Assembly (NCBI GenBank): GCA_024280015.1
Contig: JAJRQY010000018.1
Span: 1-64,000, forward strand
DNA: 64,000 nucleotides
Reading direction: 5' to 3'
Source: Actinomycetes bacterium
GTDB taxonomy: Bacteria > Actinomycetota > Acidimicrobiia > Acidimicrobiales > SZUA-35
The notes beneath the pieces were generated by a model. That model saw nothing but the letters and a program-made list of their open reading frames with translations, was not told the DNA's origin and did not search any database. Shown one piece after another: positions 23,712 to 52,423 of this stretch. The stretch's first letter is position 1. Each line of letters starts with the position of its first letter. A program made the position numbers and the translations under genes.

Positions 23712-23747
23712 GTCAGCCGCAGGTAGTCAGCCGCAGGTAGTCAGCCG
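23712..23747. repeat. 14-bp tandem repeat over the stop codon of the small membrane protein gene
   Basis: Two full perfect copies of a 14-bp unit (23712-23725, 23726-23739) and a partial third copy. Each copy reads TGACTACCTGCGGC on the coding (minus) strand and starts with the stop triplet TGA. The stop of the gene ending at 23741 therefore sits at the edge of the array and is repeated twice downstream in shifted frames. The array lies between that gene and the kinase gene. Confidence 0.85.
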
Positions 23748-38930: not shown

Positions 38931-41519
38931 ATGCGTTGGACGCTAATGCTCCGTCTTCTCCCCGCGGTCGTCATTGTTGGCGGCTTCTTCTTGACGTTGC
39001 AAATAGCCGCCGACCGAGCCGATCTGTTTGCACAAGAGCGTTCAGCGGCGCGCCAGGAGATCTATCAAGGGTTCGCCAACGTCAGTGATCACGAGGTCGA
39101 TCGCTTGCAGGCAGAGGGTGATCGCGTTGATGGTTTGATTGAGACTCTCTTTCTCACCAACGGTGATGAGGGGCGAGTTCGAGACACCCTTAGCTCGCTC
39201 CAGGCTTTTCAACGCGGCCCGTCGATTCGAGCGATCGAATACAGTAATGCCGGTGATCGCCAGTTGATTCTGCCCGATGGGCTTCAGCCGATCCATCCCC
39301 TGCCAATCGTGACCAGTGGGATCACCATGATCACCGAGGGTCGTTGGAGCAATATGCTCACCTATCGGCGTTTCAATACGGCGAATCCAGATCACTCAAT
39401 CACCATCATTTTGGACCAGGTGGCCTTGGAGGCCGATGTTGGGTCAGATGTCATGGTGAGCATCGAGGGACTTACGAGTGCGCTTCCAGCAAGCTCGGTC
39501 CCCGCCGAGCACACCGAGCGTGATCATCAGATCTATTCATCACTCTCAGAACGCAGCTTGCTTGGTGTGCGAGATCTCCAGCTTTTCGGTCAGGACAGTC
39601 GGGTATTGACTCGGTCCAGTCCAGGATCCGTGGCTGACTATGCAACATGGTCACCAGCTCAGGTCGGCTACTTGACTGCTACTGGAGGTCTCCTCACCGT
39701 CCTAGTCGCAAGCGCTGTCTACCAGATACTCCGTCGCTTCGATCGTCGAGCAATCGCCAAGGAGCTCTCCGAGATCGAGCACCAGGTAACCATTGACCGG
39801 TTCGAGGCGAGCTTCAGCCACGCCCCGGTTGGTGTTGTTGAGCTGGATGCTGATGGGATGATTGCGCTGGCCAACCCGCGTTTTGCCAGCATGTTTGGGT
39901 ATCTCAGCGAGGAATTGGAGTCAGTCCGGCTTCTAGATCTGGTTGACCAGACGGAGAGTCTCGTTGTTGGCGACCTTATTGAACAAATTCTCGCTGGTGC
40001 GGACGCTGCTCAGAGTGAGCGTCGCTATCGAGACCGCAACGGTGCAGCAATATGGGTACGTGAGTCCATCAGCTTCTTGTCAGCGACAACGGGAGCTTCC
40101 AGGGTGCTTGTCCAGATCGAAGATATTTCCGAAGAACGAAGGACACGGGTCGAGCTGCATCGCCGGGCGCTCTTTGACGAACTCACAGGCCTGCCCAATC
40201 GGGCCAATCTGGTTGAGCAACTGGCGCAAGCTATCGAGCGTTCACAACAGAGTGGACAACAGCTGGCGGTAATGTTTGTTGATCTCAACGAGTTCAAGTC
40301 AATCAATGACAACCATGGGCATGAGGCCGGTGACCGGATGCTGATTGAGGTCGCTGATCGGCTGCGACATACGTCCCGAGACACCGATACTGTGGCCAGA
40401 ATTGGCGGGGATGAGTTTGTCATCCTCTGTGAGCAGATCACCCAAGCAGACGGAGCCGAGGTCGCGGCGCGACGCTACGCAAAAGCTCTCAACCGGCCGA
40501 CAACAATTCTGGGAGTCACCCATGAGGTCCGCGCCTCCATCGGCCTTGCCTTGGCTGATCCGAACGCATTGGACACAGCTTCTGTAGACGATTTGCTACG
40601 ACGGGCTGACGAGGCCATGTACCAGGCGAAGTCGGAACAAGATCTGAGCTTTGTGAAGTATGACGAGGCAATGCCGACGGTGACGATCAACCGCCAGACT
40701 CAGGAGGCGGCTCTACGTGCTGCTGTTAGCGACGGCGAGCTGGTCATTCACTACCAGCCGATTCTCCAGCTACTCGAAGGTAGCGAATCAAAAATCGTCG
40801 GGGTTGAGGCCCTCGTCAGGTGGTTGCACCCAACTCAGGGATTGATCAGTCCCGGAGATTTTCTTCCCCTGGCCGACAAGCTTGGGCTACTCGGGATCAT
40901 TGATGAATGGAGTCTTGAGACCGGGGCGACTCAGCTCGCTCGATGGTCTAACCCTGAGGGGGATGAGGCGGTTGCCGATGCTGGCTCCTGGTTCCTGAGT
41001 GTCAATGTGAGCTCTCAGCTGTTCCAGGATTCGGGCTTTGCTCGCCGGGTCAAGAGGGTTCTTGGTTCTGTCGGTCTAGCGGCTGACCGCTTGGTTCTGG
41101 AGCGGGAAGAGTCAACGATCTACGACGATCATGAACGGGCCCATCGGACGATGGCCGCGTTACGTAGCACCGGGGTTCGGGTGGTTATTGACCAATTCGG
41201 TCGGGGAGCCACCAACCTGGCTCAGCTCTTCCAGATGGACTTCGATGGAGTCAAGCTGCATCGGTCCATCATGACCGCAGATCTCCGAGCCAGGGCTACA
41301 TCCGCTGATAGCGGTAGCCTGCCTGTGATCCTTGCTGCGGCCTCAACCCGTGGGATTGAGGTCTTTGTTGGGGGAGTGGAGAGTCCAAAAGAAGCGGAGC
41401 TTCTGCGTGCCAGCGATGTGATCAGGGTGCAGGGGTTCCATTTTTCGCGGCCGATGGCTGCCGGTGACCTCCGCGGCTATGTCGAGCGCCGTACGTCCGA
41501 TACAGCTATCGTCCAATAA
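38931..41519 (+). CDS. Membrane PAS-GGDEF-EAL protein with a degenerate EAL domain
   Basis: An 862-residue c-di-GMP protein. An N-terminal helix (about 5-25), an extracytoplasmic region to about 240 and a second helix (about 245-265) frame a sensor domain. A PAS domain (about 285-400) follows, then a GGDEF domain with intact GGDEF at 492-496 and an RxxD inhibitory site (RDTD) five residues before it. The EAL domain keeps E626 of EAL and the N, K, E and Q positions, but the DDFG metal motif reads D754-Q755-F-G and the following loop is RGATN rather than TGYSS. It is probably an active cyclase with an impaired or sensory EAL domain. The 3' end overlaps the convergent hydratase gene by 14 bases. 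Confidence 0.9.
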   Translation: MRWTLMLRLLPAVVIVGGFFLTLQIAADRADLFAQERSAARQEIYQGFANVSDHEVDRLQAEGDRVDGLIETLFLTNGDEGRVRDTLSSLQAFQRGPSIRAIEYSNAGDRQLILPDGLQPIHPLPIVTSGITMITEGRWSNMLTYRRFNTANPDHSITIILDQVALEADVGSDVMVSIEGLTSALPASSVPAEHTERDHQIYSSLSERSLLGVRDLQLFGQDSRVLTRSSPGSVADYATWSPAQVGYLTATGGLLTVLVASAVYQILRRFDRRAIAKELSEIEHQVTIDRFEASFSHAPVGVVELDADGMIALANPRFASMFGYLSEELESVRLLDLVDQTESLVVGDLIEQILAGADAAQSERRYRDRNGAAIWVRESISFLSATTGASRVLVQIEDISEERRTRVELHRRALFDELTGLPNRANLVEQLAQAIERSQQSGQQLAVMFVDLNEFKSINDNHGHEAGDRMLIEVADRLRHTSRDTDTVARIGGDEFVILCEQITQADGAEVAARRYAKALNRPTTILGVTHEVRASIGLALADPNALDTASVDDLLRRADEAMYQAKSEQDLSFVKYDEAMPTVTINRQTQEAALRAAVSDGELVIHYQPILQLLEGSESKIVGVEALVRWLHPTQGLISPGDFLPLADKLGLLGIIDEWSLETGATQLARWSNPEGDEAVADAGSWFLSVNVSSQLFQDSGFARRVKRVLGSVGLAADRLVLEREESTIYDDHERAHRTMAALRSTGVRVVIDQFGRGATNLAQLFQMDFDGVKLHRSIMTADLRARATSADSGSLPVILAAASTRGIEVFVGGVESPKEAELLRASDVIRVQGFHFSRPMAAGDLRGYVERRTSDTAIVQ

Positions 41520-42306
41520 AATTCGGTTGACGCTTTTGGATGAAGGCAGAGATTCCTTCAACATAGTCGGGATCACCCGCAAGTTCACCCTGAGCGTTTG
41601 CTTCCAGGCCCATTGAGACTTTGGCGGAGTGTCCCTCGTCGAGAATCGACCGCACGATCGCCTTGGACTTAGCAAAGGCAGCTGTTGGACCTTGAGCAAC
41701 GGTTGAGGCTTTGGATCGAACGGCCTCAAGCAGCCGGTCACTGGGCATCGAGTAGTTGACCAATCCCATTTCGGCCGCTTCGGCTCCCGAGAGAAGTCTC
41801 GACGTGTAGATGAGGTCGAGGGTTCTATGAGGGCCGATTCGTTCGACCATGGCGCGATGTCCACCCGAATCGAGGACACAACCAATGGCGGCAAATGGCG
41901 AACCGAGACGAGCACGCTCACTAACAGTGACTACATCACAGGCCATGACGATGCCGAATCCCACCCCAAGAGCGGCACCGTTGACCGCAGCAAAGGTAGG
42001 AACGGTCAGATCCCGTATGCGAAGGACCAACGGATTGAAGACCTGGCTTAGTATCTGGGCTGCGTCTTCCTCCAGCGGTGACGCATTGGAGAGATCGCGC
42101 CCGGCACAAAAGCCGCGCCCGGCACCGGTGATCACAACGGCCCGGACGGTCGGATCATTTTCGATTGTCCCGAGCACGGTGTGGAAGTCCTGGACCATCT
42201 GGTCATCCAGGCTGTTCATCACCTCGGGACGATTGAGGGTGATCTCGGCCAATCCGTTGTCGATTGAGAGCAGGACACATGACTCAGATGGCTTCGCGTT
42301 GGTCAC
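41506..42306 (-). CDS. Enoyl-CoA hydratase/isomerase, PaaG-like
   Basis: A 266-residue crotonase-fold protein, the last gene of the phenylacetate operon. The oxyanion-hole segments are GAGRGFCAGRDLS and AAVNGAALGVGFG. At the position of the second catalytic Glu it has CVLDSGG, where an Asp is typical of PaaG-type 1,2-epoxyphenylacetyl-CoA isomerases. That would convert the epoxide to the oxepin. The GTG at 42306 is chosen. An upstream in-frame ATG at 42405 lies inside the DUF3237 gene and gives an Arg/Cys-rich leader unlike the family. Confidence 0.8.
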   Translation of the reverse strand: MTNAKPSESCVLLSIDNGLAEITLNRPEVMNSLDDQMVQDFHTVLGTIENDPTVRAVVITGAGRGFCAGRDLSNASPLEEDAAQILSQVFNPLVLRIRDLTVPTFAAVNGAALGVGFGIVMACDVVTVSERARLGSPFAAIGCVLDSGGHRAMVERIGPHRTLDLIYTSRLLSGAEAAEMGLVNYSMPSDRLLEAVRSKASTVAQGPTAAFAKSKAIVRSILDEGHSAKVSMGLEANAQGELAGDPDYVEGISAFIQKRQPNFIGR

Positions 42307-42320
42307 GAAATGATCCGGGA

Positions 42321-42713
42321 TCAGCTGGTTGCGATGTAGACGGTGAGCTCCAGGGCATCGCCCTCGGCTGCTCCCATGGCGACACCTACGGCATTGTTCA
42401 GCCAAGCAAGGTCTTCATTGGCTGTTTCGAACAAGAATAGTTCTCGGGCACCATCGGCGTCGCCTCGGCCAGCGGCGGTGTAGGCAACAACATCCTTGCC
42501 CGTTCCAATCTGGCCGCGGATGTTCAGTTCTTGGGACCCATCTTTGCGGACGGTGACATAGTCAGTCCCGGTCACTGGTCGCTCGCCGTCCCAATGGCTG
42601 GAGGTAGCGGTTCCGGTGAAGGGAAGGTCAACGCGCATCCCGCCAGCCAGTTTGCCGATGGGAGCGAAGGTTAGTTTGGCGGAGATTTTGCAGAATTCGG
42701 TAAGTGAAGGCAT
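42321..42713 (-). CDS. DUF3237-like protein within the phenylacetate operon
   Basis: A 130-residue protein with the beta-barrel-like pattern of DUF3237: TFAPIGKLAGGMRVDLPFTG, DYVTVRKDGSQELNIRGQIGTGKDVVAYTA and a terminal LELTVYIATS. Function is unknown. It lies between paaC (100 bases upstream) and the PaaG-like gene (14 bases downstream). The 100-bp gap before it contains no recognisable gene. Its place suggests a role in handling a ring-epoxide intermediate, but that is speculation. Confidence 0.7.
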   Translation of the reverse strand: MPSLTEFCKISAKLTFAPIGKLAGGMRVDLPFTGTATSSHWDGERPVTGTDYVTVRKDGSQELNIRGQIGTGKDVVAYTAAGRGDADGARELFLFETANEDLAWLNNAVGVAMGAAEGDALELTVYIATS

Positions 42714-42813
42714 GGACAGACTTTCTATTGGGTATTGGTCGGGGCGGTGTGATGGTTGGTTTATTGATGTCGGATTCGAGAGTCGCTGCTTGGTGACCGG
42801 CAGCCGAGCGCAG

Positions 42814-43620
42814 CTACCACTCAGCTTCGGGATCTAGGGAAATGACGGCCTGGAGTGAGGTTAGGAATTGGTCGAATCCTTCGCTTCGCTGCAGGCGGTC
42901 TCCGAAGGAGGAGGCTGAAGGCGCAGCTTCGTTGAGATAGATCTGTATCTCCAGGCCGACCGGCAGATTCCACTTCTGTATGTCTTGGGCTATGTCCTGC
43001 TTCCACTTGCTTGCCATTGACGCCGATGATTCGGTGACAAAGCCCTCGGCGATGGCGTCGGCCTCGGCATCTGGCGGATCCCATAGGCCGTCGCCCAACG
43101 GTAGGAGTCGCTGGATTGAGTCAGTTATCAGGGCGATGGAGCTGGCGTTGCCAGAACTGGCGATCCGACTCATGAACGATTCGGCGTGAGCTCGGTGAAA
43201 AACCTCTTCCCGTTCCGAACGCAAAGCAATGGCAGCTAAGGCCGGGTTGGATGAGTCGGCAAGCGCTGCCCATCGAAGTTCTTCGGCCCGGTCATAGAGC
43301 CAATGGCGGACCAGAGCATCCTGCCAGTCATCACACGCAGCCTCGGCTAGAGAACACGACCGGTAGTCAGCGGCCGGGCGAAGCAGGGCGAAATGGTCGA
43401 TAGGAGTGACCAATTCTGATGAAGATCCGAAGCTGTCGACAACCAGTTCATACAGGGCAATAGCATGACCGAGTTCATCCTGAGCAATGGAGCAAAAGGC
43501 GAGGTCTTCCTCCAGGAAGGGGCCCATGCCGATCCAGGATGTATGCCTTGCCCCAATCATGTGCTCGTCATCGGCAAAGGCAATCAGATACGAGAGGGCG
43601 GCGGCGGACAGCTCACTCAT
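42814..43620 (-). CDS. paaC: Phenylacetyl-CoA epoxidase subunit PaaC
   Basis: Structural ferritin-like subunit of the phenylacetyl-CoA 1,2-epoxidase, 268 residues. It keeps the helix-bundle motifs AYLIAFADDEHMIGARHTSW, FCSIAQDELGHAIALYELV and the late EEVFHRAHAESFM, as in PaaC. Its ATG overlaps the paaB stop (ATGA). With PaaA it would form the core heterodimer, though PaaC itself does not use a catalytic di-iron site in characterised enzymes. Confidence 0.9.
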   Translation of the reverse strand: MSELSAAALSYLIAFADDEHMIGARHTSWIGMGPFLEEDLAFCSIAQDELGHAIALYELVVDSFGSSSELVTPIDHFALLRPAADYRSCSLAEAACDDWQDALVRHWLYDRAEELRWAALADSSNPALAAIALRSEREEVFHRAHAESFMSRIASSGNASSIALITDSIQRLLPLGDGLWDPPDAEADAIAEGFVTESSASMASKWKQDIAQDIQKWNLPVGLEIQIYLNEAAPSASSFGDRLQRSEGFDQFLTSLQAVISLDPEAEW

Positions 43621-43904
43621 GCCTCGAACCCTTCTGTCTCAGAGCGTTTACGTTTGCGTCGAGCGGCGATGTTTGAGCCGTCATTGTGGCGATGAGGCTT
43701 GTCGAAGTTGGGGGATAGGAATTCCTCCTCACCCTCGATGATGGCACTTCGAGCGACCAGCCACATCTGAGCTCCTTCTCCTCGTCGGACATAACTCTCG
43801 CGGGCCAGCAATCTGGCCATCTCGTCATCGGGGGCATCCAATGCCCCGGCATGGCGAAACTCATCCTTGCCCGCCTTCTTGAGGAACACTTCATATGTTT
43901 TCAC
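43617..43904 (-). CDS. paaB: Phenylacetyl-CoA epoxidase subunit PaaB
   Basis: Small epoxidase subunit of 95 residues with the family start YEVFLKK, then RHAGALDAPDDEMARLLARESYVRR and MWLVARSAIIEGEEEFLSPN, and a His-rich segment before the basic C-terminus. The GTG start at 43904 lies in the last of four identical 14-bp repeats. No separate Shine-Dalgarno stands between it and the repeats, and the only GGAG is 55 bases upstream, before the first repeat. Translation probably depends on reinitiation through the upstream minicistrons. Confidence 0.9.
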   Translation of the reverse strand: MKTYEVFLKKAGKDEFRHAGALDAPDDEMARLLARESYVRRGEGAQMWLVARSAIIEGEEEFLSPNFDKPHRHNDGSNIAARRKRKRSETEGFEA

Positions 43905-43953
43905 GATGCTGTTTTCACGATGCTGTTTTCACGATGCTGTTTTCACGATGCTG
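43898..43953 (-). repeat. Four perfect 14-bp repeats forming nested minicistrons before paaB
   Basis: The unit CAGCATCGTGAAAA (coding strand) occurs four times without change at 43940-43953, 43926-43939, 43912-43925 and 43898-43911. Each has a GTG (first bases 43946, 43932, 43918, 43904). From each of the first three GTGs the frame reads five codons, M-K-T-A-S, then TGA, and that TGA overlaps the next GTG (GTGA). The fourth GTG is the paaB start. A GGAG at 43959-43962 is 12 bases before the first GTG. Confidence 0.9.
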
Positions 43954-43976
43954 CTGTGCTCCGGGTCGGGTCTTGT

Positions 43977-44474
43977 TCATCGCATGACCTCAACGGGGTT
44001 GCGACACGACGAACACCAAGCGATGGAGCGACACCGGGTCGGACCTGCCATGCTCTGGTCTTGGACGGTGGTGCTACCACAAACAGGGCAAAGCAAGGTC
44101 CCATCTTTGCGCCGCAGGACGACGGTGTATTCCGACGAGAGTCGTTGCTTGGCCTCAGCGGTGATGCGTTCGGTCGACCAGATCGGGCTGGACAGCCACT
44201 GGACCTTGACTGTGGTTGTGCCGTCCAGAGACTCGACAGCCTCTCTTACGTCTTGGGCAATCATGGCCAGAGCCGGACAGCCAGAGAAGGTCGGGATGAG
44301 GCCAATAGTGGTGAATCCGTCTGGAGTGATCTCCACTGATTCGACCAGGCCAAGGTCGATCACCGAGATGTCGGGGTATTCCGGATCGAAGACCTGCTCA
44401 AGAGTGGAGCGGACCTGGTCGACGGTGACGCAGGGTCTGGAGGTCCTAGGGCCAGCTGAGGTTGTTGTGGTCAT
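43977..44474 (-). CDS. paaD: Phenylacetyl-CoA epoxidase assembly protein PaaD
   Basis: A 165-residue protein with the MIP18/SufT-like (DUF59) domain: VDQVRSTLEQVFDPEYPDIS, VIDLGLVESVEI, and the Cys motif PTFSGCPALAMIA. The C-terminal zinc-ribbon-like tail has CPVCGS and WCSSCRNP cysteine pairs, a hallmark of PaaD. It is thought to help mature the iron centres of the epoxidase/reductase. It lies between paaA (three bases upstream) and paaB, an unusual position, since paaD commonly follows paaC. Confidence 0.9.
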   Translation of the reverse strand: MTTTTSAGPRTSRPCVTVDQVRSTLEQVFDPEYPDISVIDLGLVESVEITPDGFTTIGLIPTFSGCPALAMIAQDVREAVESLDGTTTVKVQWLSSPIWSTERITAEAKQRLSSEYTVVLRRKDGTLLCPVCGSTTVQDQSMAGPTRCRSIAWCSSCRNPVEVMR

Positions 44475-44477
44475 GGG

Positions 44478-45404
44478 CTAGGCGGCCTCTCGATTGATGG
44501 TTGCTGCATCAAGTGCATCACGGACCCAGGCCGTATCAGCCCAATTCGTTGCTGCGTCGGCAATTCGTCGGCGTGAATCGGGCCCACCATTGCTCATCGT
44601 TGCCTTCAACGGTTCCCAATCGATCTCACTGGTGACCCACTTTTTGGCTTCGTCGTCATAGCGAAGCTCGTCATCGGGAATCTCAAAGCCATATCCCTGC
44701 AAGAGGGGGACGAACTTCTGGATGTAGGCCGTCCGGAGAGTCTCGTTACGCTCGGACTTGATCTTCCACTTAAGGAGCGGATCGTTTGGGTCAGAATCGG
44801 GGCCAAATAGTTGGACAGCTGGCCACCACCAACGCTCAAGCGCATCTTGGAACATTGAATGCTGGAGCTTGCTGCCCTCGGCCAAGGTCATCAACATGTC
44901 TTCACCGTGGCGGAGATGGAATCCTTCTTCGGCCACGATTCGCTTGAGGACTCGTTTGTAAGGTCCGTAGGTGCATTCGGCGAAAACGGCTCGCTGGCTG
45001 GCAAATGCCGCGGCATCAACTAGAAAAGCAATGGCGACCTGATCGGCCCAGGTAACGGCCTGGTAGTGGAACACATTGTGGAAGCGAGACTTGCCGGAGA
45101 ACAACTCTTCGATCATCTGGTTGCGCGACTTCACCCCCATGTCAGCGGCCACCATGTAGAGCAGGTGTGCGTGCCCAATCTCATCCTGGGTCTTGGCCAG
45201 GAAAATCTGCTTGAGCCGGAGCCCTGGTGCTTTTGGAATCCAGTCTCGCTCGGTTAGCCCGCCCATGAGTTCGGAGTTTGCATGAAACTCGACGAACCGA
45301 AACACCTCCTGGCGAAACTCATCGGGCATGTCATCGTTGGGTTCGACAATGCCGCCTTCATCTATGAAGGTCTGAAAATCGTCGAGATCTGTCCATGCTC
45401 TCAT
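44478..45404 (-). CDS. paaA: Phenylacetyl-CoA epoxidase catalytic subunit PaaA
   Basis: Catalytic di-iron subunit, 308 residues, the usual length. The carboxylate/His ligands are visible: Glu in FHANSELMGGL, the DExxH motif in KTQDEIGHAHLLY and the ExxH motif in VAEEGFHLRHGEDM. It would epoxidise the aromatic ring of phenylacetyl-CoA. The ATG at 45404 lies in the second copy of a 20-bp duplication. The first copy offers another ATG that makes a seven-codon minicistron ending in ATGA over this start. Confidence 0.9.
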   Translation of the reverse strand: MRAWTDLDDFQTFIDEGGIVEPNDDMPDEFRQEVFRFVEFHANSELMGGLTERDWIPKAPGLRLKQIFLAKTQDEIGHAHLLYMVAADMGVKSRNQMIEELFSGKSRFHNVFHYQAVTWADQVAIAFLVDAAAFASQRAVFAECTYGPYKRVLKRIVAEEGFHLRHGEDMLMTLAEGSKLQHSMFQDALERWWWPAVQLFGPDSDPNDPLLKWKIKSERNETLRTAYIQKFVPLLQGYGFEIPDDELRYDDEAKKWVTSEIDWEPLKATMSNGGPDSRRRIADAATNWADTAWVRDALDAATINREAA

Positions 45405-45430
45405 GACGCTGTCCGTGCTCTCATGACGCT
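45391..45430 (-). repeat. 20-bp tandem duplication of the paaA start region
   Basis: Two 20-bp copies (45411-45430 and 45391-45410) differ at one base. On the coding strand each reads AGCGTCATGAGAGC followed by ACGGAC or ATGGAC. The upstream copy's ATG (45424) opens M-R-A-R-T-A-S and then a TGA that overlaps the paaA ATG (ATGA). The paaK stop is 10 bases before the first ATG. The core ACAGCGTCATGAGAGC differs from ACAGCATCGTGAAAAC of the paaB array only by transitions (12 of 16 identical). Confidence 0.88.
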
Positions 45431-45434
45431 CTTC

Positions 45435-46760
45435 TCACAGTGACGTTCCCGTCGGTCGTTGATCGATGGTTCGACTGAGCTTGCCACCTTCGGAGCGGGG
45501 GAGCGAGCCAGAGGGCTCAATACTCACCGTGACACCAATCCCGAGGGATGAGCGCATGGCGCCTTGGATGGTCTTGGCCAGCTCAGCGTCGGTTTCACTA
45601 TTGCCTGATGCCGTTGGACTGTCCTGGTCTTGTTCCACCCGGATGTGGAGAGTGTCCATGGCGCCTTCGCGGTCGACTACGAGTTGGAAGTGTGGACTGG
45701 CGCGATTGCCGGAAGCGGTCGCGGTATTGAGCAGGGTGTGCTCAACCTGGCTGGGGTAGACATTGACGCCACGGATGACCAGCATGTCGTCGGCTCGGCC
45801 AACAATTGGCGACATCCGGGCATGGGTTCGACCGCAAGGGGACGGCTCGCGAGTGATGGAGCAAAGGTCGCCAGTCCAGTAGCGCAGGACCGGAAATGCT
45901 TGCTTGGTCAGGCTGGTGAGCACCAGGACCCCGACTTCTCCATCAGGAACGGGTTCGCCAGTCTCGGGGTGGACTATTTCGGGTAAGAAATGGTCTTCCA
46001 TAATGACCAAGCCGTTCTTGGCTGCTGTTTCGCAGGCAACGCCGGGGCCAATGACTTCGGATAACCCATAGATGTTCACGGCGGTTATGCCAAGACCTCG
46101 CTCGATGGCGGCTCGCATCTCGAAAGTCCATGCCTCGGCCCCCAAGATGCCGACCTTCAAGGAGCAGTCCTGGGCCTCATCGCCCAACAGCTCGGTGAGC
46201 GCCAGAGCGTAGGAGGGTGTGCAACAGATTGCCTCGGGAGCAAAGTCGTCCAGCAACATGAGCTGGCGTTCGGTGTTGCCACCAGAGACTGGGACGACAT
46301 TGATGCCAGCAGCTTCGGCTCCACCGTGCAGACCCAGGCCGCCGGTGAAGAGTCCGTAGCCGTAGGCATTGTGGAGCATCCAACCGGGCTCGATTCCTGC
46401 TCCTCGCAGGCAGCGGGCGACACAGTCGGCCCACATGTCAAGATCGTCCTTGGTGTAGCCAACGACAGTTGGCTTGCCCGTGGTTCCTGAACTGGCATGG
46501 ACTCGGGCTAGCTCGGATCGGTCAACGGCGAACAGCCCGAATGGGTAGTTGTCTCGGAGGTCGACCTTCTTGAGAAGAGGCATCTTGGACAGGTCGTCCA
46601 ACGACTCTGGATCGGGTACGTCTCGGAGACGTTCGGCCATGAAGGGAACCTTGTCCCGCAGGGTCTTGACCGTTTGGCGAAGGCGGTCGAGCTGGAGTGC
46701 CTCCAGTTCGGGCCGAGGCATCGTTTCGATGTCAGGCTGGTGGAAACCTGGCTCGATCAT
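45435..46760 (-). CDS. paaK: Phenylacetate-CoA ligase PaaK
   Basis: An AMP-forming ligase making phenylacetyl-CoA, the entry step of the pathway, 441 residues from the ATG at 46760. Motifs: LARVHASSGTTGKPTVVGYT (P-loop), VNIYGLSEVIGPGVACE, YWTGDLCSI, and RADDMLVIRGVNVYPSQVE, all typical of PaaK. A longer start at 46811 adds 17 residues not expected for the family. First enzyme gene of the operon, 80 bases after the MarR gene. Confidence 0.9.
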   Translation of the reverse strand: MIEPGFHQPDIETMPRPELEALQLDRLRQTVKTLRDKVPFMAERLRDVPDPESLDDLSKMPLLKKVDLRDNYPFGLFAVDRSELARVHASSGTTGKPTVVGYTKDDLDMWADCVARCLRGAGIEPGWMLHNAYGYGLFTGGLGLHGGAEAAGINVVPVSGGNTERQLMLLDDFAPEAICCTPSYALALTELLGDEAQDCSLKVGILGAEAWTFEMRAAIERGLGITAVNIYGLSEVIGPGVACETAAKNGLVIMEDHFLPEIVHPETGEPVPDGEVGVLVLTSLTKQAFPVLRYWTGDLCSITREPSPCGRTHARMSPIVGRADDMLVIRGVNVYPSQVEHTLLNTATASGNRASPHFQLVVDREGAMDTLHIRVEQDQDSPTASGNSETDAELAKTIQGAMRSSLGIGVTVSIEPSGSLPRSEGGKLSRTIDQRPTGTSL

Positions 46761-46841
46761 TGTGGATCCAATCGTGGGCGGGTCAAGATCAATACAACTC
46801 TTGGCTTGCAATCCCCAACGTAGATTGTGCTGACAAGGTCG

Positions 46842-47408
46842 TCAAGCCCCTAACGAGTTTGTTTCTTCGTCGTCGGTGGACGCTTGGTCGGTTTCGGACC
46901 CGGTGTCGAGAGGCGTGGCCAATAATTTGCGCATGATCTTGGAGAAAACCTGGAGTTCGTTGGCACTAAGTGCGTCGAAATGCACGGCTTCTCGCTTATT
47001 CTGACTCCGGTAGGCAGTCTGGACCAGATCTGAGCCAGAGTCAGTGAGACGAACGGTAACCAATCGGCGATCGGCCTGATCCCGACATCGTTCGATCAAC
47101 GTTCCTCGTTCCAGCGTATTGAGTACTCCGGAGACGGCAGCTCTGGTAACGCCAGAAAAGGCAGCGATCTGGCGAGGTTCGAGCTCGTCAAAGACCCACA
47201 CCGTGAACAACACTCGAAAGCCCGCTATGGACAATCCGAGCGGCCGGTGGACCTCGACCTCCATGTCATGAAGGAGTCGAGAGGAGACACGGAACAAGTT
47301 GAAGGCGGCCGAGAACGTATTCTGATTGATGTCGCCACCGAGTTCGGCAACGGCTTCAGAAGCGCGCCGTTCGAGATGGTCTACGTCATCATTGGGTGGG
47401 ACAGCCAT
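46842..47408 (-). CDS. MarR-family regulator, likely for the phenylacetate operon
   Basis: A 188-residue regulator from the ATG at 47408. The winged helix region is typical: LSIAGFRVLFTVWVFDELEPRQIAAFSGVTRAAVSGVLNTLERGTLIERC, then DRRLVTVRLTDSGSDL. The frame stays open upstream to 47630 but encodes a Pro/Cys-rich stretch unlike MarR proteins, so the shorter start is preferred. It lacks a clear ribosome-binding site. As the first gene before paaK it may control the operon, probably with a CoA-thioester or aromatic acid as ligand (inference). Confidence 0.8.
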   Translation of the reverse strand: MAVPPNDDVDHLERRASEAVAELGGDINQNTFSAAFNLFRVSSRLLHDMEVEVHRPLGLSIAGFRVLFTVWVFDELEPRQIAAFSGVTRAAVSGVLNTLERGTLIERCRDQADRRLVTVRLTDSGSDLVQTAYRSQNKREAVHFDALSANELQVFSKIMRKLLATPLDTGSETDQASTDDEETNSLGA

Positions 47409-47650
47409 AGCTGCAAGACAATACTCGACCTCATTCGGTGGAGCGAGGTTCCGCCCCAAGAGCAGGTTGAACAGCTCGATCGGAGAGGACTGTCGGTTCA
47501 AGCATCGGAGGTAGTTCGGGTCAGTGGATCGATCAGACGTTTGCAGTACTCTTTGGCCGTCCTCGTGGTGTTTCCGGGAGGGACAAGGAAGATCTGACAG
47601 ATAGCGAACAACTGCCAGGTTGTCGTCCACCTATTGCGTTCTTCTGAGAG
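47409..47650. other. Divergent intergenic region between MarR and SulP genes
   Basis: About 240 bases (more if SulP starts later) without a convincing gene, assuming the MarR start at 47408. It should hold the phenylacetate operon promoter and the SulP promoter. I see no clear palindrome or paired promoter boxes that I could support. The open frames on both strands here look like chance or N-terminal run-through. Confidence 0.5.
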
Positions 47651-49354
47651 TTGGTTCCGTTGCGTGAGACATTTGACGCCCAGGTGAAAGCTCGGTTGTT
47701 GGTATCGCAGCTTGCGTCGCTGATGCCGAACAGGAGTGACTATGCCGGCTTAGCTTCCTCGTGGAAGACCGATGTCATCGCTGGTGTCACCGTTGGTGTT
47801 GTCGCTCTTCCACTTGCCCTTGCCTTTGGGATCACCTCTGGTCTTGGGGCCGATGCCGGACTCGTCACCGCCATTGTTGCTGGGTTTGTGGCGGGAGTCT
47901 TTGGCGGGTCAAACGTCCAGGTCTCGGGCCCAACCGGAGCGATGACGGTGGTACTGGTTCCAATCGTTGCTCGACACGGTGTTGACGCGGTCTTTGCCGT
48001 TGGCTTGCTCGCCGGCATCGTCATTTTGCTCGCCGGCCTAGCTGGATTCGGCCGCTATCTTGCCTATATCCCGTGGCCTGTCGTCGAAGGATTCACCCTT
48101 GGGATCGCGGTGATCATCTTTTTGCAACAAGTCCCATCGGCTCTTGGAGTTCAGCGACCAGCGGGAGAGAACTCAGCCATTGTTGCTGGACGGTCTATGG
48201 TCGAAGGTGTCGCAGGGCGAGGCTCGCTTACGGCTGTCTTTGTACTGGTCGCCGTCGTTGCGATCATGTGGTTGGCTCCCCGGTTGCATCCGAGCATCCC
48301 CTCGTCTTTGGTGGCGGTTGCGGTGGTGACCGTCGCCAGTCGAGTGCTTGATCTTGAGCTGTCGGTTATCGGCGAATTGCCAAATTCTCTACCGGTACCA
48401 GCGCTCCCTTCCTTTTCTCCGCGGTTGATCTCTGACCTCTTTGGGGCTGTCCTCGCTGTTGCGGCGCTCGGTGCACTAGAGAGCCTTCTGTCGGCCAAGG
48501 TGGCCGATGGGATGGCGGGGGTTGGAAGGCATGACCCGAACCGCGAGCTCTTTGGACAGGGTCTGGCGAACATTGTGTCGCCCCTGTTCGGTGGAATGCC
48601 CGCAACCGGTGCGATTGCTCGCACCGCGGTAAACGTGAAAGCCGGAGCCAGGACGAGGCTTTCAGCCATCGTCCATTCGTTGGTCTTGCTCGGGATTGTT
48701 CTTGTGGGATCCGGGCTGGTGGCTGAGATACCTTTGGCGGCTTTGGCTGGTGTACTCATGGTCACAGCGGTGCGAATGGTTGAGGTCCACAATGTCCGCT
48801 CCATCATCCGAGCAACTCGATCAGATGCCCTGATCTTGCTGGTCACAGCAGTGGTGACAATCGGGCTTGATCTGATCTTGGCTGTCGAGGTTGGCATGGC
48901 GGTTGCAGCCGTTCTGGCGCTGCGCCAGCTGGCCAAGACTTCGGCCCTGATCGTTGATCCATTGCCCTTGCTGGATACGGAGTTGGCAACCTCGCTTCGG
49001 CGGGATCACATTGTTAGCTATCGCCTCGATGGAGCTCTTTTCTTCGGGGCGGTCCAGCGCTTTCTCAGTGAGCTCACAATGGTCGGCGATGTCGAGGTAA
49101 TCATTCTTCGTTTACCTGACTTGCGGATGATGGATGCGTCTGGGGCTCAGGCTCTGGGCCAGATCATTGAAGAGTTGGAGAATCGTGGGGTCACCGTTTT
49201 GATCAAGGGGCCGAAGCCCGAGCATTTGCGAATCCTCTATGAGGTCGGCGTCATCGATCGTCTTGCCGATGAGAAACATGTCTTTCAACATCTTGACGAT
49301 GCTGTTGCTCACGCAAGGCACCACCTTCGGATCGCAAGTTCTCAGAAGGAGTAG
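47651..49354 (+). CDS. SulP-family anion transporter with STAS domain
   Basis: A 567-residue transporter with about 12 membrane segments and a cytoplasmic C-terminal STAS domain (about 445-560). Family motifs: WKTDVIAGVTVGVVALPLALAFG at the start, GLVTAIVAGFVAGVFGGSNVQVSGPTGAM and GMPATGAIARTAVNVKAG. The STAS phosphorylation-type segment is MMDASGAQAL. It could carry sulfate, bicarbonate or another anion. The TTG at 47651 is weak. ATG at 47723 is another reasonable start and still precedes the first helix. Confidence 0.9.
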   Translation: MVPLRETFDAQVKARLLVSQLASLMPNRSDYAGLASSWKTDVIAGVTVGVVALPLALAFGITSGLGADAGLVTAIVAGFVAGVFGGSNVQVSGPTGAMTVVLVPIVARHGVDAVFAVGLLAGIVILLAGLAGFGRYLAYIPWPVVEGFTLGIAVIIFLQQVPSALGVQRPAGENSAIVAGRSMVEGVAGRGSLTAVFVLVAVVAIMWLAPRLHPSIPSSLVAVAVVTVASRVLDLELSVIGELPNSLPVPALPSFSPRLISDLFGAVLAVAALGALESLLSAKVADGMAGVGRHDPNRELFGQGLANIVSPLFGGMPATGAIARTAVNVKAGARTRLSAIVHSLVLLGIVLVGSGLVAEIPLAALAGVLMVTAVRMVEVHNVRSIIRATRSDALILLVTAVVTIGLDLILAVEVGMAVAAVLALRQLAKTSALIVDPLPLLDTELATSLRRDHIVSYRLDGALFFGAVQRFLSELTMVGDVEVIILRLPDLRMMDASGAQALGQIIEELENRGVTVLIKGPKPEHLRILYEVGVIDRLADEKHVFQHLDDAVAHARHHLRIASSQKE

Positions 49355-52368: not shown

Positions 52369-52392
52369 TGTCCTGGACCGAGCATCCAGAGG

Positions 52393-52423
52393 TGAGGGTC
52401 CAGAGCTGAGGGTCCAGAGCTGA
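52393..52423. repeat. 14-bp tandem repeat after the ABC-F gene
   Basis: Two perfect copies of TGAGGGTCCAGAGC (52393-52406, 52407-52420) plus a third TGA. It lies 24 bases after the ABC-F stop and 15 bases before the 3' end of the convergent trehalose gene. Like the array at 23712, the unit is 14 bp and starts with TGA. Confidence 0.8.

Follow-up and report, generated by a model that had tools for sequence, protein, structure and literature searches.

On the minus strand of the window (the whole 64,000-nucleotide stretch of DNA that was analysed), the genes of a paa operon follow one another closely, and at two of their junctions very short reading frames lead, stop onto start, from one gene into the next. 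PaaA and PaaD match their family models above cut-off; PaaK, PaaB and PaaC score below the curated cut-offs, yet the paa families are their best matches. The features that concern us are these:

42814..43620 (-): paaC, by family model; its start and the paaB stop overlap by 4 nt (ATGA)
43617..43904 (-): paaB, starting at GTG 4, by family model and alignment to relatives
43896..43953 (-): 14-bp tandem array, unit GTGAAAACAGCATC (TRF: period 14, 4.1 copies, 100% match, score 116)
43901..43918 (-): minicistron 3, from GTG 3, reading MKTAS-stop; its stop overlaps the paaB start
43915..43932 (-): minicistron 2, from GTG 2, reading MKTAS-stop; within the 21-codon frame, GTG 2 is read as Val
43929..43946 (-): minicistron 1, from GTG 1, reading MKTAS-stop; its TGA overlaps GTG 2 as GTGA (read from the sequence)
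43915..43980 (-): 21-codon frame, MNKTRPGAQQHRENSIVKTAS and stop; its ATG overlaps the paaD stop and its own stop overlaps GTG 3
43959..43962 (-): GGAG, the sole Shine-Dalgarno-like (SD-like) motif, upstream of copy 1 and 12 nt before GTG 1
43977..44474 (-): paaD (TIGR02159, above cut-off)
44478..45404 (-): paaA (TIGR02156, above cut-off)
45389..45430 (-): 20-bp tandem duplication spanning the paaA start (TRF, 2.1 copies, 95%)
45401..45424 (-): minicistron MRARTAS-stop; its stop overlaps the paaA ATG
45421..45438 (-): minicistron MRRAS-stop; its GTG overlaps the paaK stop (GTGA)
45435..46811 (-): paaK, by family model, the upstream gene of the paaK-paaA relay

The GTGs of the 14-bp array stand 14 nt apart on the minus strand, at 43946, 43932, 43918 and 43904, and are here called GTG 1 to GTG 4. 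The sequence-only reading from which this work began had held that four perfect copies precede the gene, that the first three GTGs each open a frame reading MKTAS whose stop overlaps the next GTG, and that the fourth GTG is the paaB start. All of this was borne out: TRF returns a period of 14 with a 100% match, the three frames can be read directly at 43946, 43932 and 43918, and residue 1 of the relatives' PaaB (mostly an ATG; MRTYEVF or MKTYEVF) aligns exactly at GTG 4. A PaaB start in frame at GTG 1 is ruled out by the TGA inside the GTG 1 minicistron, and a dispersed element is ruled out because the full-length unit GTGAAAACAGCATC has three occurrences in the 4.8-Mb genome (whole-genome search), every one of them in the paaB array. 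No stable RNA fold was found at the array (fold z-score 0.46), no Rfam family matched in a search of 41000-48000, and no promoter was found within the array.

How much of this anatomy should surprise us? Once a unit whose length is 2 mod 3 and which contains GTGA has been duplicated, the rotation of frames and the overlap of stop with start follow automatically, so that they count as one fact and not as several. The surprising parts are that the duplication spans a start codon, that the unit belongs to the 2 mod 3 length class, and that such things occur repeatedly. Because the four copies are identical, the paaB array is probably young.

Where would a ribosome enter? The earlier proposal was that GGAG, found only before the first copy, feeds a relay of three MKTAS steps. 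The motif does lie where it was said to lie (43962-43959), but its 12-nt distance from GTG 1 is a long spacing and GGAG is weak; near GTG 4 there is no SD-like motif. The paaD stop (43979-43977), for its part, overlaps an ATG at 43980 as ATGA, and this ATG is, on the reading frames, the likeliest entrance to the relay. From it runs a gapless path, paaD to the 21-codon frame to MKTAS to paaB (steps of 62 and 14), in which each stop overlaps the next start, as termination-reinitiation calls for, at ATGA 43980, GTGA 43918 and GTGA 43904. GTG 1 and GTG 2 are off this path, the former out of frame and the latter read as valine. That is, the relay anatomy is stronger than had been claimed, being gapless from the paaD stop and recurrent elsewhere, but the course first drawn through it was too simple, the paaD-coupled route entering GTG 3 and GTG 4 only. 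The further supposition that copies may be gained or lost with paaB left intact holds in simulation for at least three copies, with which the relay from paaD still reaches paaB, but not below that: with two copies, the paaD-coupled ATG is in frame with PaaB and adds 16 residues, and with one, the leader frame from that ATG ends 11 nt inside paaB.

The same operon contains a second gapless relay (45389-45438, minus strand), which leads from the paaK stop through MRRAS and MRARTAS to the paaA ATG in steps of 14 and 20, the stop again overlapping the next start at GTGA 45438, ATGA 45424 and ATGA 45404. The window also holds two further 14-bp tandem arrays, at 23712-23747 and 52385-52423; our gene caller puts neither at a gene start and places the one at 23712-23747 over a gene end.

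The genome groups with Ilumatobacteraceae/Acidimicrobiales assemblies, and the 14-bp array is absent from every relative's paaB junction that was read. In the majority of relatives, the paaD stop and the paaB start coincide or lie close together. A spacer of 75-80 nt, with an SD-like GGAAGGA of its own and without repeats, separates them in the sister species, whose PaaB is 82% identical.

Is the arrangement, then, peculiar to this operon? Our statistics for the source genome come from 1.33 Mb sampled out of 4.8 Mb, with gene starts taken from a home-made simple gene caller (it found the correct starts of paaA, paaB, paaC and paaD). In this sample, short tandem repeats occur at 123 per Mb, about 5-fold the 24 per Mb of a second-order Markov null, and a genus mate has a similar excess. 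The start-spanning repeats whose unit is not divisible by three are all 2 mod 3, a contrast in period class that is not significant at these loci alone (6:0 vs 28:17, p 0.16). Gapless stop-to-start relays number 26 where 17.0 are expected, and none of 300 intergenic shuffles reaches 26; against shuffled intergenic DNA, relays of two or more steps number 8 (2.8 expected), and those with equal consecutive steps number 3 (0.09 expected). Most of the 26 have a single step, and chance probably accounts for most of these, but not for the repeated ones. The equal-step chains include five 14-nt steps before peptide deformylase, three 17-nt steps before kynureninase and two 17-nt steps before an HrpA-like helicase, and another 17-nt array (L115) begins on an upstream frame's stop and leads into a 149-codon frame. 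The array before the deformylase gene def (L235, minus strand, reaching the def start near 1504) has six diverged copies with ATGA kept in all, so that 20 of its 20 ATGA positions are conserved compared with 37 of 50 elsewhere, a comparison biased by ascertainment. SD-like motifs precede only about one-third of the starts in this genome, and neither end of the arrays has an excess of them (3/16 and 4/16).

What lies behind such arrays was asked of period-14 loci and of the arrays in the sampled contigs of this genome. At 17 of the 25 period-14 loci read, the last RTG opens a long gene, and 16 of these 17 genes belong to a Pfam family: ribosomal L31, DnaB, peptide deformylase, methionyl-tRNA formyltransferase, TetR (behind eight copies), LysR, kynureninase, PhoU, MoxR-type and SbcC-type AAA proteins, NUDIX, crotonase and others. 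At four loci (L223, L224, L236 and L239), the start chosen by the gene caller lies 9-51 nt downstream of the last RTG, which we consider the likely gene start there. The first TGA of the array is the upstream gene's own stop at 8 of the 17 gene-start loci; set against the 15% of co-directional gene pairs in this genome that have 4-nt overlaps, arrays begin on an upstream stop in excess (Fisher p 0.004, computed with 18 arrays). Kynureninase has an array in two genera, at L197:7404-7444 in this genome (period 17) and at L231:1501-1560 in another genus (period 14), the two sequences being unrelated. Two enzymes of formyl-methionine, def in this genome (L235) and fmt in another genus (L236:1501-1546), have relay arrays.

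For the family, we searched 39 genomes, taking one genome per species, for four RTGA words at a fixed spacing, with the reversed pattern as control. At the 2 mod 3 periods, matches exceed the control 4.3-fold (15 vs 5 at period 11, 61 vs 11 at period 14, 27 vs 8 at period 17), whereas the 1 mod 3 periods (20 vs 18 at period 13, 18 vs 21 at period 16) and period 15 (176 vs 153) show no excess. Matches inside one array are not independent, and when the contrast between period classes is counted by genome, it is modest (Fisher p 0.017). Arrays of period 15 outnumber those of every other class and have no excess of RTGA in one orientation, as one would expect if they encode in-frame protein repeats. 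In the order (297 genomes), period 14 occurs in 69 genomes (about 34 in the control) and period 13 in 18 (18 in the control); in the phylum (149 genomes), period 14 occurs in 18 (8 in the control). Genome counts for the control were tallied by hand. Conservation of RTGA inside the arrays was set aside as a proof of selection, since a search pattern that itself requires RTGA makes such conservation an unreliable guide. The units of the relay arrays elsewhere differ from the paaB unit and measure 11-20 bp. Similar but diverged period-14 RTGA arrays stand in species pairs of two genera (G149/G223, G177/G321, G260/G307, G095/G281 and G132/G186), a similarity that suggests inheritance of whole arrays across species.

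We think it probable, at roughly 0.6, that the paaB array is a start region expanded by slippage that hands ribosomes from one operon gene to the next by termination and reinitiation, without a gap. A ribosome would end paaD at ATGA 43980, begin again at the ATG that overlaps this stop, read through 21 codons, stop at the TGA overlapping GTG 3, translate MKTAS and stop again at the TGA overlapping GTG 4, which is the start of paaB; a ribosome that initiated de novo at GTG 1 by way of the weak GGAG would be handed on likewise. The source of repeats at start regions and stop/start junctions would be the short tandem duplication that is frequent in this lineage, and 2 mod 3 units with NTGA would be retained since with them translation stays coupled; in the other frames the ribosome would be misrouted or lost. 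It is possible, though on the unlikely side, that there is only slippage here, with the last copy intact, ribosomes binding independently at GTG 4 to start paaB, and the minicistrons mere bystanders. The genome-wide excess of short tandem repeats would provide for this, as would the automatic overlaps; the paaB array, perfect and hence young, is confined to a single species, and the sister species manages with its repeat-free spacer and GGAAGGA. But slippage without consequence does not predict the excess of 2 mod 3 over 1 mod 3 periods, nor the excess of arrays that start on an upstream stop codon, nor (with the ascertainment bias already noted for def) NTGA kept in every copy of diverged arrays, and it leaves GTG 4 to initiate with no SD-like motif nearby. 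Slippage combined with a filter for coupling is the most economical account, with selection for coupling as the probable filter on duplications and ribosomes presumably translating the minicistrons.

Could the number of copies matter in itself? The sequence-only reading had suggested that PaaB dosage could be set by the number of relay steps, which slippage would raise or lower, and instability is indeed expected of perfect tandem repeats; in Mycobacterium tuberculosis, moreover, repeat length upstream of fpg1 correlates with the fpg1 mRNA level (PMC2734929). We find such tuning improbable at paaB, where the array is absent from every relative's junction that was read, leaving no copy-number variants to be seen, where the product is a subunit made beside paaA, paaC and paaD, and where one or two copies shift frame relations rather than dose. 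That the copy number is an artefact of assembling a genome from a metagenome is very improbable indeed: the source is a single draft assembly of 175 contigs, but a 58-bp array is shorter than ordinary reads, and an assembler would not invent the imperfect relay at the paaA start or the diverged relays in the same genome. A larger claim, which we regard as doubtful, would be that in the Ilumatobacteraceae, and more weakly in the wider order, chains of 5-6-codon minicistrons at 14- or 17-nt spacing are a selected, general ribosome-loading device for operon genes without a Shine-Dalgarno motif, that is, a natural multi-step bicistronic leader that grows and shrinks by slippage.

What these arrays indicate is that reading-frame arithmetic acts as a filter on short duplications at gene starts: 2 mod 3 units keep the ribosome on track and persist, even before such normally essential genes as rpmE, dnaB, def and fmt. 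If this is true, nature has provided a series of one- to seven-step reinitiations from which the efficiency per termination-reinitiation event could be measured directly, and there is an explanation of how operons can gain intergenic DNA without loss of translational coupling.

At 4-nt ATGA overlaps, the ribosome that finishes the upstream gene goes on to initiate at the downstream start, and an SD motif helps this without being required in every case (Huber et al. 2019, PMC6728339; review PMC12548453). The relays share with these the overlap of stop and start between co-directional genes and differ in that one or several minicistrons of 5 to 21 codons are interposed, making a chain of overlaps. 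Synthetic bicistronic designs use a single engineered leader cistron with a strong internal SD, its stop overlapping the gene start; here, too, the stop of a short frame overlaps the gene start and would deliver the ribosome to it, but the relays are natural, repeated and mostly without an SD. In phase-variable repeats of the start region, such as those of the lic genes of Haemophilus, repeat number alters the frame relation to upstream starts, as copy number does at paaB, but paaB has no on/off logic, at least three copies always reaching the gene.

The closest known kind is the coupled insertion of the MIRU type. As summarised in PMC12548453 and PMC2734929 from Supply et al. 1997, MIRUs are a dispersed, apparently mobile family of 40-100 bp, situated between the genes of operons and often tandem and variable; the first of these accounts adds that the small frame of a MIRU joins its gene by a 4-nt overlap and that the insertion may thereby be tolerated, with little effect on expression. 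The small frame of the paaB repeat is joined to its gene by just such an overlap. There is, however, no dispersed family of one sequence (the paaB unit is found at one locus and the units of other arrays differ), nor do the units reach 40-100 bp, measuring 14 and 20 bp at paaB and paaA and 11-20 bp elsewhere; they look like local duplications of a start or a junction, with a new sequence at nearly every locus. In the open-access literature, we found no such arrays described outside MIRUs. The relays would follow the same coupling logic as that proposed for the mycobacterial MIRUs, carried out with tiny, locus-specific units.
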